Virus record (IMG/VR): IMGVR_UViG_3300039045_000224
Coordinates: 9,386-30,591 of that record
Direction: 5' to 3' (one strand)
DNA length: 21,206 nucleotides
From: a virus
The notes under the pieces were generated by a model, which was not told the DNA's origin, made no database searches, and was given only the letters and a program-made list of their open reading frames with translations. Shown one piece after another: positions 2,843-21,206 of this stretch; position 1 is the first letter of the stretch, and every line of letters begins with the position of its first letter. The translations under genes and the position numbers were made by a program.

Positions 2843-3778
2843 TTACTCGCCCAGGACCGCGAAAGGCTTGACCGCGATCTCAAAGTCGAAAGACATATCG
2901 AACGTGTATTCAAGCGCACGGCGGCGGTTGTGATAGGCGCGGTTGCGGTCAACAGTTGTGTGCAGACCGTGGACCAGGTTGCGCAGCGGCGTGAACAAGA
3001 CTTTCCCTTGGGGGAAATTCGGGTGAGCCTCGATGTCATGGCCACGGAAGCGGCGCGCAGGCGATCCACTTTGAGCCTCATGACCCGTCACCGGCGCATT
3101 GATCTCCTCGCCATACTCATCCGCATCAGCGGTGTTCATGACGAAAACCGATGTCGCCAGAGCGCGGTGATCCTGCTTTGCCTTGACCGCCTTGAGCGTT
3201 GCGATCCAGCCATCAGTTGCGGCATCGATGGCTTGCTTGGGAGCCTTGGGAGCCTCGCGAGCGATCTGGAGCCAACCTTTGTTAAGGTGGAGGAACTTCT
3301 CCTCGCGGGTTGCGCCAGCGCCATCATCGGCGATGCCGTTAAAGCCCAGGTCCACGATGTCATTGCCCAGAACGGTATTGAAGCCCGTCTCGATCTCTTT
3401 TTGCAGCTCAGGATTGTCCTTGTTTTCACGCAGGAAATCCAAGGTCAGCGTTGCAAAGAGCTGGGCATCCAGAGCGGTCAGCTTACAACCACCCTCTTGC
3501 GCGCCGGTCAGGGACGCCTCATCAGGCTCAGAGCCTTGAGCAACGCGCACCAGTTGGCGGCGCAAGATGTCCAGGACATCGACCATGCGGGTCAGTTTGG
3601 ACATCCGAACGGTTGTGACCTTGGACAAAAACCCGTCTTTCCAAAGCATGGAAATCAGCTTTTGCGCCTGTTGCGGTGTCAGGGTGCCGCCATTGGCGAG
3701 GTCGGTTGGGCCGATAAGGGATTTGGCCAGCGCGACCACATCATCCATGCGGCCATGATTTGGCAGATCAATGATCAT
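2843..3778 (-). CDS. N: Major capsid protein (P2 gpN family)
   Basis: The product is 311 aa (P2 gpN is 357 aa before processing). Three segments match the gpN family: SLIGPTDLANGGTLTPQQ near the N-terminus; LGFNGIADDGAG with HLNKGWLQIAREAP at about residues 138-176, corresponding to FNGV and GWLQKYRNEAP in P2; and a C-terminal block from HPNFPQGKVLFTPLRNL to FEIAVKPFAVLG corresponding to the P2 segment around YFP and LENLSIYY. The HK97 fold is expected. The start ATG at 3778 overlaps the protease stop by 4 bases. The N-terminus looks short, so less propeptide may be removed here than in P2. The family call is confident; the absence of any Mu T-like capsid gene in the window supports it. Confidence 0.93.
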   Translation of the reverse strand: MIIDLPNHGRMDDVVALAKSLIGPTDLANGGTLTPQQAQKLISMLWKDGFLSKVTTVRMSKLTRMVDVLDILRRQLVRVAQGSEPDEASLTGAQEGGCKLTALDAQLFATLTLDFLRENKDNPELQKEIETGFNTVLGNDIVDLGFNGIADDGAGATREEKFLHLNKGWLQIAREAPKAPKQAIDAATDGWIATLKAVKAKQDHRALATSVFVMNTADADEYGEEINAPVTGHEAQSGSPARRFRGHDIEAHPNFPQGKVLFTPLRNLVHGLHTTVDRNRAYHNRRRALEYTFDMSFDFEIAVKPFAVLGE

Positions 3779-9021: not shown

Positions 9022-9771
9022 ATGAAAGTCGATTTTGAATTGGGCCACACAAGGCTCATCGTGTCAGCCTGCATGCGCTACGGGCTCTTGCGCAATCAAG
9101 CCGCCTATGTCCTGGCAACGGCATACTGGGAAACAGCACGAACAATGGAGCCGGTGCGCGAAGCATTCTGGCTCTCCGAGGATTGGCGCAAGGCCAATTT
9201 GCGTTACTACCCTTGGTATGGGCGGGGCTTTGTCCAGCTCACGTGGGAGACCAACTATCACAAGGCTGGCGCTGAGCTTGGCCTCGATCTCACAACGGAT
9301 GCGGACAAGGTGATGCAACCTGAAATCTCGGCCGAGATTTTGGTGGTCGGCTCGCGCGATGGCTGGTTTACCGGCAAGCGGCTCGATGACTACATCACCC
9401 TGCAAACGTCCAATTATCGCGGCGCGCGGCGGATCATTAACGGCACCGACAAAGCCGCCGCCATCGCTGAGATCGCCCGCGAATATGAGGAGGCCCTCCT
9501 CGCCGAGGGGTATGGTCTGGAGCCGGTTGCGCCGGTGGTCGAGGATCGCCGCGATGGCACCTCACCGCGTAGCAATCCCGCACAATCCAAAACGCTGATC
9601 GCACAAGCTGCGCAGTGGATTGGGGCCAGCGGCGTGGTTGGCGCGTCATGGTTTGGCGGTCAATCTGAGGCCGTGCAAATGGCGCTCATTGGCGGCGGGG
9701 CTCTCATCCTGGTGGCAGGCATTGTGGTATTCCGCGAGCGCCTGAAACACTGGGCGGATGGGGTCCGGTGA
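9022..9771 (+). CDS. GH19-like endolysin with C-terminal membrane segment
   Basis: The product is 249 aa. Residues 1-160 match phage lysins of the glycoside hydrolase 19 (chitinase-like) type: AYVLATAYWETARTMEPV with candidate catalytic E37, YGRGFVQLTWETNYHKAG (66-83), DGWFTGKRLDDY and ARRIING (135-141). A Pro/Asp/Ser linker follows, then one hydrophobic segment (about 217-237, MALIGGGALILVAGIVVF) ending in a short basic tail. There is no N-terminal signal or SAR domain, so the enzyme looks tail-anchored. A GGGAG ribosome site precedes ATG 9022. It is the first of the lysis genes and is followed by a spanin gene with a TGATG overlap. Confidence 0.85.
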   Translation: MKVDFELGHTRLIVSACMRYGLLRNQAAYVLATAYWETARTMEPVREAFWLSEDWRKANLRYYPWYGRGFVQLTWETNYHKAGAELGLDLTTDADKVMQPEISAEILVVGSRDGWFTGKRLDDYITLQTSNYRGARRIINGTDKAAAIAEIAREYEEALLAEGYGLEPVAPVVEDRRDGTSPRSNPAQSKTLIAQAAQWIGASGVVGASWFGGQSEAVQMALIGGGALILVAGIVVFRERLKHWADGVR

Positions 9772-13758: not shown

Positions 13759-13780
13759 ATTCCAATTTAATTTGTGCTCA
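13759..13780 (-). repeat. Internal copy of the phage-end repeat
   Basis: This 22-base site matches the right-end site at 21155-21176 at 18 positions: ATTCCAATTTA is identical, then four bases differ, then GTGCTCA is identical. It covers the stop codon of the orphan Mu-type DNA-binding gene and part of the gap before gemA. It has the same orientation as the end copies. It could be an internal transposase-binding site or a relic of an older end. Confidence 0.65.
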
Positions 13781-14017
13781 GGCGATCCCTGGGAGCGGGA
13801 GCTCCTCTTGGTCCACCATCACGAAAGCCTCGCGGATGGGGTCCGGTAGGGTGGTAAATTCGACTGACCATTCACCTTTTGCGGGAGTGGTCAAGCGCAT
13901 GTCAGCACCGCACCAGGAGCGGCCCTGGGTGGCGCGATAGGCCATGCGGCGCACATGCTTGCGGGTGAGGCCTGAGACCTGGGCGATCTCAGAGATGGTA
14001 ACGTGTTGCGGGGTCAT
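13778..14017 (-). CDS. Orphan Mu-type DNA-binding protein (MuA domain I-alpha / Mu repressor N-domain-like)
   Basis: The product is 79 aa and consists almost entirely of one domain. ISEIAQVSGLTRKHVRRMAYRA, a W-C-G-A-D core and GEWSVEFTTLPDPIREAF can be laid over residues 37-104 of this phage's own transposase (LTADALADLAGVSDRMARKA, W-R-G-A-D, GGKALQVHVDSLPADLRESW). That region corresponds to the enhancer-binding winged helix of MuA, which is related to the Mu c repressor N-domain. Here it stands alone, without catalytic or oligomerisation parts. Its start overlaps the upstream gene by ATGA. It may compete with the transposase or act as a regulator at shared sites. Confidence 0.78.
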   Translation of the reverse strand: MTPQHVTISEIAQVSGLTRKHVRRMAYRATQGRSWCGADMRLTTPAKGEWSVEFTTLPDPIREAFVMVDQEELPLPGIA

Positions 14018-16240: not shown

Positions 16241-16965
16241 CAGCTCCTCCCCGCCATCCATGCGGCGGCGGTCTCGACCACGCGCTCATCGATCTTGGTG
16301 ATGCCCTCATTGGCCATCAGGCGCTCGCATGCATCGGCCAGCTCCAGCGCTGAGCGCCACTGGCCCTGGGTCAGGATGCGGAACCGCTTGGCGGTGCCTT
16401 TGGTGACCTGGCCAAAGCGTGGCGCGATCACATATGCAGCGAGCTCAGCATCATCGGTAATGGGTTTCATCAACACCTTTTTGGCCCCGATCCGCTGGCG
16501 AAGCTGGGCAAGATACACCCGCACCCGCGCCTCGATCAGGCGCTTGGCCAGGATGTCAGTGCCAGCCAGGATCAGGCCCGCGCCGCCAATGTCAGACAGG
16601 CCGCGCAGCTTTTCGAGGGTGGCCCATTTGAGCTGATTGGCCTCATCGATGATGATCAGCTTGCCAGCGCACTCGCCCTTGATCTTGCGGAACAAGGTGG
16701 GCGCGGTGCCGCTCACATCGAGGCTTGCGCCACGGGCGTTCAAGCCCATTGCGATCTCCTCCAGGAGCGCCTTGTCACCCATGTCCATCCAGCACTCGAC
16801 CCGCACCCCTTCAAACTCATCCGCGAGCCAGTTGGTCAGGGTGGATTTGCCGGTGCCTGGATCGCCGGTGATCTGGCCGATCTTGCTATATGGCCGAGCC
16901 TTGAGCACGGTTTGACACATCTCAAACGCTTGCTCGGCCTGGGCGGTCTTAATGAAATCGCTCAT
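16240..16965 (-). CDS. B: Transposition protein B (MuB-type AAA+ ATPase)
   Basis: The product is 241 aa. Walker A is GDPGTGKS (residues 34-41) and Walker B is LIIIDEAN (103-110), followed by a sensor-like LILAGTDILAKRL. In Mu, B forms ATP-dependent filaments on target DNA, stimulates A and gives target immunity. The protein is shorter than Mu B (312 aa) and lacks its N-terminal helix-turn-helix, as far as can be seen. Its start overlaps the A stop by 4 bases (ATGA), giving coupled expression with the transposase. Confidence 0.93.
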   Translation of the reverse strand: MSDFIKTAQAEQAFEMCQTVLKARPYSKIGQITGDPGTGKSTLTNWLADEFEGVRVECWMDMGDKALLEEIAMGLNARGASLDVSGTAPTLFRKIKGECAGKLIIIDEANQLKWATLEKLRGLSDIGGAGLILAGTDILAKRLIEARVRVYLAQLRQRIGAKKVLMKPITDDAELAAYVIAPRFGQVTKGTAKRFRILTQGQWRSALELADACERLMANEGITKIDERVVETAAAWMAGRS

Positions 16966-19235
16966 TCCTCATCCTCTGCAAATTGGAACCCAGCCAGGAC
17001 CTCATTGGGGCCTGTTTTCCATTGCTCGACTGGGCCTTTGGGTTTCTTGTTTTCGGCCTCATCCAAGAGCGCCTTGCGGCTCTCCCCTTGCATGCGGGCC
17101 ATGCGGTCGATGATCCCAGCGTCCACAATCGCGGCGACTGGAGCCTCTGGAGCATCGGGCATGTGGGCGATGTGGCGCTCGGTTTCCTCGGTGAGGCTGA
17201 GGAGGGCCACATGCTTGCGCTTTTCGGCGATCTGGCGGCGGAATGCCTTGCCGCGCCGGTTGACCTCCTGAGCGCCAGCGCCATCGAGGACGCCAAAGGT
17301 TTGCTCAGGGAAGGCTTGGCAGATCAGCTCGCCATCGGCGAAACAGAACACAAATTCGGGATTGAAGGCGGGAACCCTGAGCGTGATCTTGTGATCGAGG
17401 CCGAGGAGCTCATCCGCATAGAAATACATGGTCTCGCCGCGCCGTGGGGTGTAGCTGACACGCCCGCGATCCGGCATGCGCTCGACCTCCTCAGCAAAGG
17501 CCAGGGCAAGGACCTCAGGGCGCGAGAGCGCGGTCTTGCCCCATCCCTGATCAATGAAATTGCGCAAGGCCTCATTGGGGCTCATGCCCGCAAGCCGCCC
17601 ATGCTGAGGGCGCTTGTGATACCACTCCAGAGCGGTGCCAGCGGTCTCAAGGAATGCATGCGCATCCCCATCAAAGGCCACTGGGTCCTTGCCCTTTGCG
17701 TGGGTCTTTTTGTTCATGCGGTCGCCAGCGGTCCAGCCAGGGATTGTGGCGAAAAAGACTTGCTCGATGTTGCCAAAGGCACCCTCGATGCCTGGCTTGC
17801 CTTTCGCGTTGTATGGCATCGAGCGCACAACCGCCTCGCGGTCATTGGCAACCCGCTTGGCGACATTGGGATCACCATCAAGATCAAAGACTTTGAGCCC
17901 GCCCTGGGTGAGCTTTGAGAGCTGGGTGAAACCGCCGATCATGGCATCCCAGGAATACTCTGACCCGTTGTCGAGATAGAGCATCTCTGGGAGGCCCCAC
18001 TCATCGACCATGGCCTCAAAGCTCTGAGCCACATGCTCGCGCCGGATACCCTCACCAGGCTCGCAAAGCACAAACGTCATATGGATTTCATTGGTGGCCA
18101 CATCATACCAGGCAATCGCCTTGGGATAGACCACCGTGCCATCCTCGCGGCGCATCATGATGTCCACTGGGTGAACGTCACCCACGACAATCTGGCGCGG
18201 CAAGAGGCTGGAATAGTCACGCCGGATCGAGGGCATATAGTTGTCCTGGAATACCGCGTTGTCTTTGTCCTTGATCGCCAGGAGCGCATATTCGCGGTGA
18301 TGCTCCACCTGGCGGCGGTTCACGTTGCAAAGGCCGAACTGGGTGCCCTTGGCGTTGGTGTCGCCACACCGGCCCAGCTCAAGCGCATCAAAGGCCAGCA
18401 CGTTAAGGCCTCGGCTCATCTCGATCAGGCGGGTGGTGGATTTCTCAGTGACCGAACGCCAGCCGCGCTCACCAGCCGCCCAAAGGGATCGGATGTAGGT
18501 GGTCAGCTCATCGCTGATCTCGGCATGCTTGGCCGCATCGATGTGCGCCTCAAAGAACGCATCCCAGGCACGGGTGACCTTTTGGCGCTTGGCACCGCTA
18601 TCGGCGCGGCGCTTGCGGATCAGGCCATTCAAGCCCTCGGCCTCGAAATCGCGCACCCAGTTATATAGTGCAGACTTGGCCACCTTTTTGCGGTTGCCGT
18701 TTGGGAATAGGCGCGGGGTCTGGGCCAGCTCCTCGATCAGCTCAGCGCGCGCGGGCGAGCCTTTCTCAAGGATCAGGATGGGCCGGATCACCTCTTGCCG
18801 CCACCGCGCCAAGGCCAGATCGGCCTCAAAGCGCGCATCATTCTGATAGGTTTGCTCTGGCACCAGGACCGTCTTGCCGGTCTCGGTGTCAGGCTTTTCA
18901 TGGAGCGTGATGCCGTGGCTGATATACCAGCTCTCGCGCAGATCGGCGGGCAAGCTATCAACATGCACCTGGAGGGCCTTGCCGCCAGCACCACCACGCC
19001 CGATCTGGACCTCTTGGACCAGGAGATCGGCACCGCGCCAGCGGCGCGACATCATAGCCTTGCGAGCCATCCGATCTGACACACCAGCCAGATCGGCCAG
19101 AGCATCGGCGGTGAGCCACTTTTCGAGGTTCCGCAATGGTTCCGCAATAGGTTCCGCAATGCGGTCTAGCGTCAGGATTGCGGAACCCTCAGCGCTGGAC
19201 CCTTCAAGGTCTGATTTTCGCAAAGCCTGCCCCAT
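16962..19235 (-). CDS. A: Transposase A (MuA-type DDE recombinase)
   Basis: The product is 757 aa, longer than MuA (663). Residues 1-36 are an extra N-terminal leader encoded by the iteron region. Residues 37-104 form the enhancer-binding winged helix (WLTADALADLAGVSDRM to GGKALQVHVDSLP), comparable to MuA domain I-alpha. End-binding helix-turn-helix domains follow (about 130-270). The catalytic core has VGDVHPVD (D353), YLDNGSEY (D422) and PGIEGAFGN (E484), with spacing 69 and 62 against 67 and 56 in MuA. The C-terminal part is basic and helical, expected to contact B. ATG 19235 is the only reasonable start: no other start codon keeps the first domain whole except a TTG at codon 5. Confidence 0.96.
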   Translation of the reverse strand: MGQALRKSDLEGSSAEGSAILTLDRIAEPIAEPLRNLEKWLTADALADLAGVSDRMARKAMMSRRWRGADLLVQEVQIGRGGAGGKALQVHVDSLPADLRESWYISHGITLHEKPDTETGKTVLVPEQTYQNDARFEADLALARWRQEVIRPILILEKGSPARAELIEELAQTPRLFPNGNRKKVAKSALYNWVRDFEAEGLNGLIRKRRADSGAKRQKVTRAWDAFFEAHIDAAKHAEISDELTTYIRSLWAAGERGWRSVTEKSTTRLIEMSRGLNVLAFDALELGRCGDTNAKGTQFGLCNVNRRQVEHHREYALLAIKDKDNAVFQDNYMPSIRRDYSSLLPRQIVVGDVHPVDIMMRREDGTVVYPKAIAWYDVATNEIHMTFVLCEPGEGIRREHVAQSFEAMVDEWGLPEMLYLDNGSEYSWDAMIGGFTQLSKLTQGGLKVFDLDGDPNVAKRVANDREAVVRSMPYNAKGKPGIEGAFGNIEQVFFATIPGWTAGDRMNKKTHAKGKDPVAFDGDAHAFLETAGTALEWYHKRPQHGRLAGMSPNEALRNFIDQGWGKTALSRPEVLALAFAEEVERMPDRGRVSYTPRRGETMYFYADELLGLDHKITLRVPAFNPEFVFCFADGELICQAFPEQTFGVLDGAGAQEVNRRGKAFRRQIAEKRKHVALLSLTEETERHIAHMPDAPEAPVAAIVDAGIIDRMARMQGESRKALLDEAENKKPKGPVEQWKTGPNEVLAGFQFAEDEE
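19127..19187. repeat. Four 11-bp iterons inside the 5' end of gene A
   Basis: GGTTCCGCAAT occurs at 19127-19137, 19138-19148 and 19150-19160 (direct), and inverted as ATTGCGGAACC at 19177-19187. All four copies are exact. Read in gene A they are translated as IAEP, IAEP, an out-of-frame LRN and, on the other strand, GSAI, so the conservation is at the DNA level. They probably form a protein-binding site such as a transposition enhancer or operator. Confidence 0.88.
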
Positions 19236-19240
19236 CGTCT

Positions 19241-19489
19241 CTACACCGCACCATCAAAGATGGCGCTCGCCCCTGAGCGGCACTTGGCGCACATTCTGTG
19301 GTGCGCTCCCTCGCTCATGAATTGGTCACTGCATGTCATGCACTTGCGGCGCTTACGGCGCGCCTGGCGCTCCAGCGTGTCGCGCTTGCTCTCGGCCTGC
19401 GCCACCGGCCCAGGCCCCCACACCTCGACACCATCCTTGGTGACGACCGCGAGCGCGCCAAAGCGTTCAACCTCAATAACGGCGGTCAT
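19241..19489 (-). CDS. Small zinc-finger protein
   Basis: The product is 82 aa from ATG 19489, overlapping the upstream stop by ATGA. It has an N-terminal beta-rich half (VIEVERFGALAVVTKDGVEVWGP), a basic linker, and KCMTCSDQFMSEGAHHRMCAKCRS, a four-Cys zinc knuckle of the C-x-x-C-x-x-x-F-x-S-E-G type common in phage and alphaproteobacterial small proteins. Its stop lies 6 bases before the start of transposase A. A nucleic-acid binding role is probable for the finger; the specific function is unknown. Confidence 0.75.
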   Translation of the reverse strand: MTAVIEVERFGALAVVTKDGVEVWGPGPVAQAESKRDTLERQARRKRRKCMTCSDQFMSEGAHHRMCAKCRSGASAIFDGAV

Positions 19490-19752
19490 GCTGAGCCCTC
19501 GCAATCATGCGCCATGATCTTGGAGAGCATGCTGGTATAGGCCCTCTGGGCGATCCGGTTCATGGCCTCGATCTGGTGGGGCTGAGCGCCTGATCCGGCA
19601 TAGATGCCCATCATATCGCCAAAGGCCTCGGCCAAGGCGAGGAGCGTCTCCTCATTGGTGGGCGCACGGCCCAGGGATGCCTTGAGGGTCTCGACCGTAG
19701 CCATATGACCCTCAAAAGCGGCGTTTTGGATGTGCTCAGGAACGTGGCTCAT
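19486..19752 (-). CDS. Small early protein of unknown function
   Basis: The product is 88 aa from ATG 19752, which overlaps the upstream TAA by one base; a start three codons earlier (19761) is less likely. The sequence MSHVPEHIQNAAFEGHMATVETL, then PTNEETLLALAEAFGDMMGIYAGSG, is helical with no recognisable motif. It is translationally coupled on both sides. No function can be assigned. Confidence 0.68.
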   Translation of the reverse strand: MSHVPEHIQNAAFEGHMATVETLKASLGRAPTNEETLLALAEAFGDMMGIYAGSGAQPHQIEAMNRIAQRAYTSMLSKIMAHDCEGSA

Positions 19753-19976
19753 TATCCGCACTCCCGCTCAAAGGCTTCGCGCATCAGGATATTGGAGAGC
19801 TCGGCGAGCTGATTGCCCGCAAAGCGCACCACTGCCGCCGCGTCTGGGTCTGTGATTTTCATCAACAGGGACAGGGCAAAGTTGGCCTTGTCCTTATCTG
19901 AGAGGCCCTGGAGGGCCTCCTCAGCGGCGGCACGTTGGGCGCACTCGGCGCGCTTGATGTTTGTGACCAAGCTCAT
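19752..19976 (-). CDS. Small early helical protein of unknown function
   Basis: The product is 74 aa from ATG 19976, which overlaps the stop of the Ner-like gene (ATGA). It is predicted to be entirely helical and mixed-charge (MSLVTNIKRAECAQRAAAEE, then ALSLLMKITDPDAAAVVRFAGNQL). No known family is recognised. It is the second gene of the early operon. Confidence 0.68.
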   Translation of the reverse strand: MSLVTNIKRAECAQRAAAEEALQGLSDKDKANFALSLLMKITDPDAAAVVRFAGNQLAELSNILMREAFERECG

Positions 19977-20251
19977 GCCGCCGCCTCATTGCAGCGTTTG
20001 GCCTCAGCCTCGATGCGGGCGCGGTAGCTGATCGATACCACCTCGCGGCCCGCATCATTGATCATGCGGGAGAGGAGCTCTTTGCCGCGATCACCGCCAG
20101 ATTGGCCATAAGTAGCCTGGCGCGCGGTGGTGCGGTTCACGTTGTTCTCGACGCACCATGCGTCAAAACTGGACCCGCTCGCCTTGAAAGCGCCCGCGAT
20201 AACCTCATGCAGGATCACTCCAGGCTGGAAGATGTTGTCAGAAAGTGTCAT
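19973..20251 (-). CDS. Ner/Cro-like early regulator
   Basis: The product is 92 aa from ATG 20251 (MTLSDNIFQPG), preferred over 20263 because an AGG lies 8 bases upstream. A helix-turn-helix is visible at about residues 27-55 (SSFDAWCVENNVNRTTARQAT, then GGDRGKELLSRMI). It is the first gene of the leftward early operon and faces the repressor across the operator region, the position of ner in Mu and cro in lambda. It probably represses its own operon and/or the repressor gene. The sequence is not close enough to Mu Ner for a firm family call. Confidence 0.72.
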   Translation of the reverse strand: MTLSDNIFQPGVILHEVIAGAFKASGSSFDAWCVENNVNRTTARQATYGQSGGDRGKELLSRMINDAGREVVSISYRARIEAEAKRCNEAAA

Positions 20252-20293
20252 ATGTTGCCTCATGTCTCGATGTGCCGTGGGGGCATGAGCCAG

Positions 20294-20322
20294 AATATGA
20301 CCAATAGTTACACTCTAAGCAA
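20294..20322 (-). promoter_or_regulatory. Probable early promoter (leftward)
   Basis: On the minus strand TTGCTT (20322-20317) and CATATT (20299-20294) are separated by 17 bases, giving a fair -35/-10 pair. The start point would be near 20287, about 36 bases before the Ner-like ATG. Operator-like site O1 (20295-20306) overlaps the -10. Confidence 0.5.
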
Positions 20323-20349
20323 GGGGGGTATTGACCAATATGGACAATA
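20295..20349. promoter_or_regulatory. Three operator-like sites between repressor and early operon
   Basis: Three 12-base sites of partly palindromic form end in CAATA: ATATGACCAATA (20295-20306), TATTGACCAATA (20329-20340) and ATATGGACAATA (20338-20349). The second is the most symmetrical (TATTG, two bases, CAATA). The first lies on the leftward -10. The second and third lie directly before the repressor gene, and the second contains a TTGACC that could serve as a -35. Arrangement and position fit binding by the S24 repressor and/or the Ner-like protein. Confidence 0.6.
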
Positions 20350-20358
20350 AATCTGTAA

Positions 20359-21012
20359 ATGCCTGAATTTAATGATAATATTTCCCAAATTAGGCGCAAC
20401 ATGGGTCTATCTCGCGAAGCATTTGCCGAACCGCTGGGGGTTTCGCCTGACAAAATTCGCCACATCGAAACAGGAAAGCAGCGCGCCGATCACGAGGTCT
20501 TGGGGGCGCTGAGGACTGTTTACGGGGTGGACCTCAATGAGCTCTTTGAGGGTGAGATTGGTTCCGAAACCAGCACGGCGAGTTCGCCATCATTTGTTAC
20601 GGTGCCGAAATATACTGTTTCCGCAAGCGCTGGTAATGGCGGCTCTTTCGTCTCTGATCCCCTGGAGATCACGCACTATGCGTTTCAAGAGAGCTGGATC
20701 AAAGGCAAAGGCCTCGATCCCAAGATGCTCCACATCGTGCGGGTCAAGGGTGACAGTATGGAGCCCAAGCTGATCGATGGTGATCTGATTTTGGTGGATC
20801 GCGCCCAGGCCATGCCATCCGATGGCAGCACATACGTGGTGCGGATATGGGATGAGCTGGTGGTCAAGCACGTCCAGAGGACGGGCAAGGATAGCATCTC
20901 TTTGATCAGCGCCAATAAGGTTTACCCACCGCGCGAGCTCGATCTCCCATTGGATGAGGCCAATTTTGAGATCATCGGGCGCGTGGTAGCATCGATGCAT
21001 GAATGGCCATAG
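20359..21012 (+). CDS. CI/LexA-type repressor (XRE helix-turn-helix plus S24 peptidase)
   Basis: The product is 217 aa. Residues 8-42 form an XRE helix-turn-helix (QIRRNMGLSREAFAEPLGVSPDKIRHIE). Residues 82-217 form an S24 self-cleavage domain with cleavage site A91-G92 (VSASAGNGG), nucleophile S133 in VKGDSMEP and general base K170 in LVVKHVQ. Such repressors are inactivated through RecA after DNA damage. Mu itself uses a different, non-S24 repressor. No ribosome site precedes ATG 20359, and a possible -10 (TGTAAA, 20354-20359, 17 bases after TTGACC) touches the start, so a leaderless message is possible, as for lambda cI. Confidence 0.93.
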   Translation: MPEFNDNISQIRRNMGLSREAFAEPLGVSPDKIRHIETGKQRADHEVLGALRTVYGVDLNELFEGEIGSETSTASSPSFVTVPKYTVSASAGNGGSFVSDPLEITHYAFQESWIKGKGLDPKMLHIVRVKGDSMEPKLIDGDLILVDRAQAMPSDGSTYVVRIWDELVVKHVQRTGKDSISLISANKVYPPRELDLPLDEANFEIIGRVVASMHEWP

Positions 21013-21052: not shown

Positions 21053-21197
21053 ATTCCAAAATAAAACGTGCCGCTTTTGCCAATCGGCCAATTTTGCCCG
21101 CGTTTGTCGGATCGCCCATAAACAAAGGCCTTTCAGAGATGAGCCCTTTCATGCATTCCAATTTAGAACGTGCTCACCATTCCAATTCATTCCGATC
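21053..21197 (-). repeat. Transposase-binding end repeats (three copies)
   Basis: Three related sites begin with ATTCCAA: 21053-21071 (ATTCCAAAATAAAACGTGC), 21155-21173 (ATTCCAATTTAGAACGTGC) and 21179-21197 (ATTCCAATTCATTCCGATC, 13 of 19 positions like the second). The first two share the CGTGC end. Spacing of 102 and 24 bases towards the terminus resembles the three A-binding sites in each Mu end. The region between repressor and terminus holds no gene. Confidence 0.78.
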
Positions 21198-21202
21198 CCC
21201 CC

Positions 21203-21204
21203 CA
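21203..21204. other. Probable phage terminus (terminal CA)
   Basis: Mu-family ends have the form 5'-TG...CA-3'. The last CA lies 6 bases beyond the outermost end repeat, within a C-run. The final two bases CC may be host or neighbouring DNA. Confidence 0.5.
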
Positions 21205-21206
21205 CC

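Follow-up and report, generated by a model that had tools for sequence, protein, structure and literature searches.

A conserved repeat array inside the transposase gene of marine Mu-like phages, a probable transposition enhancer matched to the transposase N-terminal domain

The array and its neighbourhood

The DNA discussed here (hereafter "the window") is a stretch of 21,206 nucleotides, corresponding to positions 9,386 to 30,591 of the IMG/VR virus record IMGVR_UViG_3300039045_000224. Its gene A encodes a putative transposase: hhalign gives a weak match to the catalytic region of MuA (E = 1.9e-4, probability 48%), the Pfam DDE_2 domain is seen in the A protein of a relative, L017, below the cut-off (E = 0.0025), and the gene next to A encodes an AAA domain, as MuB does. 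The right edge of the window is the left end of the phage, judging from where homology stops in three prophages, and it carries candidate end-binding sites of the type TTGGAATG (Table 1).

The original prediction placed four exact copies of an 11-bp sequence, three direct and one inverted, within A, and these are indeed present at 19127–19187. The 11-mer GGTTCCGCAAT occurs on the plus strand in three direct copies and one inverted copy, and the whole 30,591-base virus record holds no further copy at zero or one mismatch. Along the A-coding strand, the inverted copy comes first; a 16-bp gap separates it from a direct copy, which is followed after 1 bp by a second direct copy and then immediately by a third, so that the centres are 27, 12 and 11 bp apart. 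Three exact 11-mers at these steps were found in none of 100 Markov-simulated windows. The copies had also been said to lie in different frames and on both strands of the gene, which is borne out: translated within the A open reading frame (ORF) they give GSAI (residues 17–20), IAEP, IAEP and LRN (residues 34–36), and they are thus read in two frames and both orientations. The array is located about 2.0 kb from the phage left end in this 30.6-kb record, nearer that end, and its repeat differs from the candidate end sites, as expected of a Mu-type enhancer.

Immediately after the array, where an enhancer-binding type of domain had been anticipated, A encodes a domain modelled by AlphaFold2 (AF2) as a winged helix (residues 37–99, pLDDT 88). 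The best PDB match of its profile is 1TNS, the MuA enhancer-binding domain, at a weak E-value of 0.34, while hhalign against the Iα domains of Mu and D108 gives E = 3.7e-6 with a probability of 87%. Fold searches return the similar folds of BldC (Z 6.6), Pukovnik Xis (5.9) and RdfS (4.7), with a middling score for the Mu repressor (1QPM, Z 4.8); Foldseek yielded no significant match, and 1TNS was not among the matches listed. By sequence and model, the domain resembles MuA Iα, both in its winged-helix fold and in its likeness to MuA residues 1–76.

Two other elements of the window are worth mentioning. A 79-amino-acid orphan protein, encoded at 13778–14017, carries a domain like that found at the N-terminus of A (hhalign E = 1.6e-5). 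Between the repressor and the Ner-like gene, the sequence TGACCAATA occurs twice (20298–20306 and 20332–20340) at a 34-bp step; this pair, which is unlike the array and was spotted by eye, constitutes candidate operators.

Table 1. Positions in the window of gene A, the repeat copies, the proposed reader and the phage end
Feature	Position	Strand	Remarks
Transposase gene A	16962..19235	-	757 aa; contains the array and its proposed reader
Wing loop (A residues 78–85)	19004–18981	-	AF2 model
Recognition helix (A residues 54–63)	19076–19047	-	AF2 model
Winged-helix domain (A residues 37–99), proposed array reader	18939..19127	-	AF2 pLDDT 88; 1TNS; hhalign
Direct copy 3	19127..19137	-	11-bp step; in another frame than copies 1 and 2
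Direct copy 2	19138..19148	-	12-bp step
Direct copy 1	19150..19160	-	ATTGCGGAACC on A-coding strand; centre 27 bp from inverted copy
Inverted copy	19177..19187	+	ATTGCGGAACC on plus strand, GGTTCCGCAAT on A-coding strand
Phage left end with candidate A end-binding sites	21100..21205	-	TTGGAATG; unlike the array

A rigid layout with matched repeats and domains

Relatives of A were drawn from virus contigs and bacterial genomes, those with a name being mostly Rhodobacteraceae, and one plasmid copy was seen among them. Eighteen distinct A lineages were counted, from a family of marine Mu-like phages. Further genome draws and a scan of viral contigs by the wing region added almost no lineages, and a search of a phage database with A gave a distant match to BalMu-1 only. 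The array was sought with a finder that ignores the repeat sequence and looks for an inverted copy plus three direct copies at steps of 12 and 11. The 27-12-11 bp layout (centre to centre) occupies the same place in the A leader in 17 of the 18 lineages, the sole exception (L020) having kept two direct copies; the same finder detected no array in the distant alphaproteobacterial relatives L041, L042, L063 and L064. The repeat itself comes in 14 different forms, such as ATTGCGGAACC in the window, ATTGCGGACCC (L003), TCAAAGGACCC (L005), TCAAAACAACC (L006), ACTAACGAACC (L047) and ATTGGTTCGGC (L009). Inside one phage the copies change together, and they agree apart from occasional single mismatches. 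The encoded peptide alone cannot account for this pattern, because the third direct copy sits in another reading frame. The original idea would have failed had relatives conserved only the peptide; instead they keep the DNA layout, although not the repeat sequence. In L011, an additional leader peptide (RIGVPQN, around 1045–1105) may be a decayed array. In L021 the A frame ends after 551 residues while the array is intact, so this prophage copy may be broken.

The repeat varies in step with the winged-helix domain. With the repeat numbered p1–p11 along ATTGCGGAACC and residues numbered as in the A protein of the window, Arg55 goes with G at p7, and Gln55 or Ala55 with C (L009 apart); at p9, Val56 goes with C, and Met, Ala or Thr56 with A. 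At p6, G accompanies Arg58 and C accompanies Gln58, whereas His, Ser or Asn58 goes with A and Ala58 with T (L009 apart). In the other half of the repeat, p2–p4 read TTG with the wing GRGGAGG, CTA with [NS]V-GRGG, and CAA with GR-GRGG. Among the 408 variable columns of A, the highest z-scores fall on column 58 for p6, 55 for p7 and 56 for p9, and on column 83, followed by 81, for both p2 and p4. Leave-one-out prediction, run on the same 18 lineages from which the residue-base code was derived, succeeded in 14/16 cases for p6, 16/18 for p7, 16/16 for p9, and 18/18 for both p4 and p2.

Kinship of the A bodies does not predict the repeat (r about 0). Once it is controlled in partial Mantel tests, the helix residues still follow the 3' half of the repeat (r = 0.89, p = 0.0001) and the wing its 5' half (r = 0.74, p = 0.0001), and in these distance tests the helix has no predictive value for the 5' half, nor has the wing for the 3' half. 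The best six-residue windows begin at residues 54 and 81, as compared to maxima of 0.47 and 0.28 for r outside the domain. Two of the 18 lineages, L009 and L016, fit the code loosely. High scores of p8, p10 and p1 are also reached with columns outside the domain; for p8 and p10 we attribute these to kinship, because neither position varies outside L009 and L016, two lineages with a common A body. In the AF2 model the covarying residues belong to the recognition helix and the wing loop, the parts with which such proteins touch DNA. The covariation with helix and wing is what would be expected of a Mu-type enhancer recognized by the N-terminal winged helix of its transposase.

Close phages provide natural REPLACEMENTS, replacements against a near-identical background. 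L005 and L006 show no difference over A residues 110–429; their wings are the same, as are the N-terminal 66 residues of their repressors, and their Ner-like proteins are near-identical. They differ in the leader and the recognition helix. Their repeats have CAAA in common and a different 3' half. The A bodies of L009 and L016 are 97% alike, while the whole domain and both repeat halves differ. Finally, L047 (1442–1580, locus reverse-complemented) carries in one A leader two arrays, one after the other and with repeats of different types. The second, of the ATTGCGCACCC type, is older-looking, lies upstream of the current array and is without a matching domain. It may be what is left of an earlier cassette, and a newer one inserting next to it would be expected to give this picture.

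The end sites behave separately. Those of the type TTGGAATG persist in L006, L014, L016 and L021, which carry other arrays; conversely, L013 has the array and N-terminal domain of the window, but its end sites (left end, 3476–3630) have changed from TTGGAATG to TTGCATTG. Six of the 16 differences in the L013 A protein are at residues 181–189, a probable end-binding helix, which suggests two separate reader-site pairs within the A protein.

Enhancer, operator or RNA element?

The residue-to-base match makes it very probable, as far as sequence and model can tell, that the N-terminal domain of A reads the array. The most convincing overall reading, with a probability of roughly 0.7, is that of a cis-acting site bound by the A winged-helix domain, most likely a transposition enhancer. 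A subunits would grip the phage ends by a second DNA-binding region, and their N-terminal domains would dock head-to-tail, perhaps cooperatively, along the tandem row of three 11/12-bp sites and also at the inverted site, thereby organizing the transpososome. The proposal that a Mu-enhancer-like element had moved into A fits best, given the residue-base covariation and the Iα-like domain. Several observations weigh against it: the different place of the enhancer in Mu and its use there by the repressor, the weakness of the 1TNS match taken alone, the middling fold-search score, the lack of an array in the more distant alphaproteobacterial relatives, and the loose fit of L009 and L016 to the code.

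Could A instead be regulating itself? The main rival has A bind its own leader, block RNA polymerase and limit its own transcription. The array does lie in the 5' part of A, at a downstream position within the early operon, and the covariation is compatible with any DNA site that A reads. However, a scan of 18900–20500 for the sigma-70 consensus alone found no promoter-like match, the array included, autoregulation would mean a roadblock within an operon of overlapping genes, and the homologous Iα domain of MuA acts on an enhancer (PMC3362531). An autoregulatory operator is accordingly unlikely, and the role of transposition enhancer is the one we consider probable of the two.

A role in RNA is much less credible. 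By pairing within the A mRNA, the inverted and direct copies might govern its translation, which would oblige all of them to match; the leader does fold somewhat better than shuffled sequences (z -2.0), and concerted change would preserve pairing. Yet the single inverted copy can pair with just one of the three direct copies at a time while all three keep their sequence and spacing, and pairing leaves the match to recognition-helix and wing residues unexplained.

Slightly less probable still is an operator read by another protein of the phage, be it the S24 repressor (HTH_3 plus Peptidase_S24), the Ner-like protein or the orphan domain protein. Tandem operators are frequent for phage repressors, and the orphan protein is similar to the domain family found at the N-terminus of A. 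Against this, L005 and L006 have different arrays in spite of their identical repressor N-termini, the repressors of the window and L016 are 97.7% identical while their arrays are unrelated, and the orphan recognition region TRKHVRR is identical in the window, L016 and L003, the arrays of which differ. All three proteins are excluded as readers because phages sharing each of them carry different arrays; the repressor and the orphan protein, both initially named as possible binders, must consequently be dropped.

Least plausible of all is neutral slippage with template switching: short repeats can become homogenized without function, but this would hardly keep the 27-12-11 spacing rigid in 17 lineages whose repeats differ, and across a frame shift, and it is contradicted by the residue-to-base covariation. 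Plasmid replication iterons were also considered and rejected, the array being within a Mu-like phage transposase gene and its sequence tracking A rather than an initiator.

A possible specificity cassette

The Mu enhancer (O1-O2) lies between the repressor and ner genes, and is used by the repressor as well. The transposition enhancer proposed here would work like it without being the same element, since it sits within the A frame and is not tracked by the repressor, whereas the Mu arrangement is an element between c and ner whose operators are read by a repressor with a related domain. Other differences from Mu and D108 are the S24 type of the repressor, with which the array is not shared, the four short sites in a fixed layout, and the linkage of the array to its proposed reader. 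The likenesses are an element near the left end and an N-terminal winged-helix domain, enhancer-binding in Mu and D108, apart from the end-binding region. In Mu, Iα binds the enhancer and promotes assembly (PMC3362531), and six MuA subunits bridge the ends and the enhancer (PMC3562280). Beyond residue 76 the A proteins of Mu and D108 hardly differ, and in the part before it they share 47% identity; this is a replacement confined to the N-terminal domain and of the same kind as in these phages. In the literature searched, which covered few subscription journals, we found no description of an enhancer inside a transposase gene.

BldC and the excisionases Xis and RdfS are winged-helix proteins with a fold similar to that of the A domain. 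BldC binds direct repeats head-to-tail, each site being made of an AT-rich half and a half contacted by recognition residues (PMC5859096). Such head-to-tail binding suits the tandem 11/12-bp sites; however, BldC has a 9-bp site per subunit and a role in transcription, whereas here the steps are 11/12 bp, an inverted site is added and the gene is that of a transposase. In the immunity-type variation of operators and repressors in temperate phages, linked site and reader diversify together. The difference here is that a transposase does the reading, at a site contained in the very gene that encodes it.

Since a stretch of about 300 bp in a single gene holds both array and reader, recombination could replace them together and yield many specificities. 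With slightly better than even odds, enhancer and reading domain would then form, within the A gene, one specificity cassette that can be swapped as a unit. It would have at least 14 natural specificities and, on helix and wing, a residue-base code close to one-to-one, and the second array of L047 would be the fossil of a past replacement. For a Mu-type transposase, this amounts to a naturally occurring set of DNA sites with their matching reader domains, the recognition rules of which can be read and tested. It also hints at a possible position of the enhancer in those Mu-like phages in which repressor and A do not share a DNA-binding domain. Beyond this, it suggests a route by which transposable phages diversify, with each transposase directed to its own genome: if true, the cassette would let each transposase distinguish the genome of its own phage from those of relatives residing in the same host.
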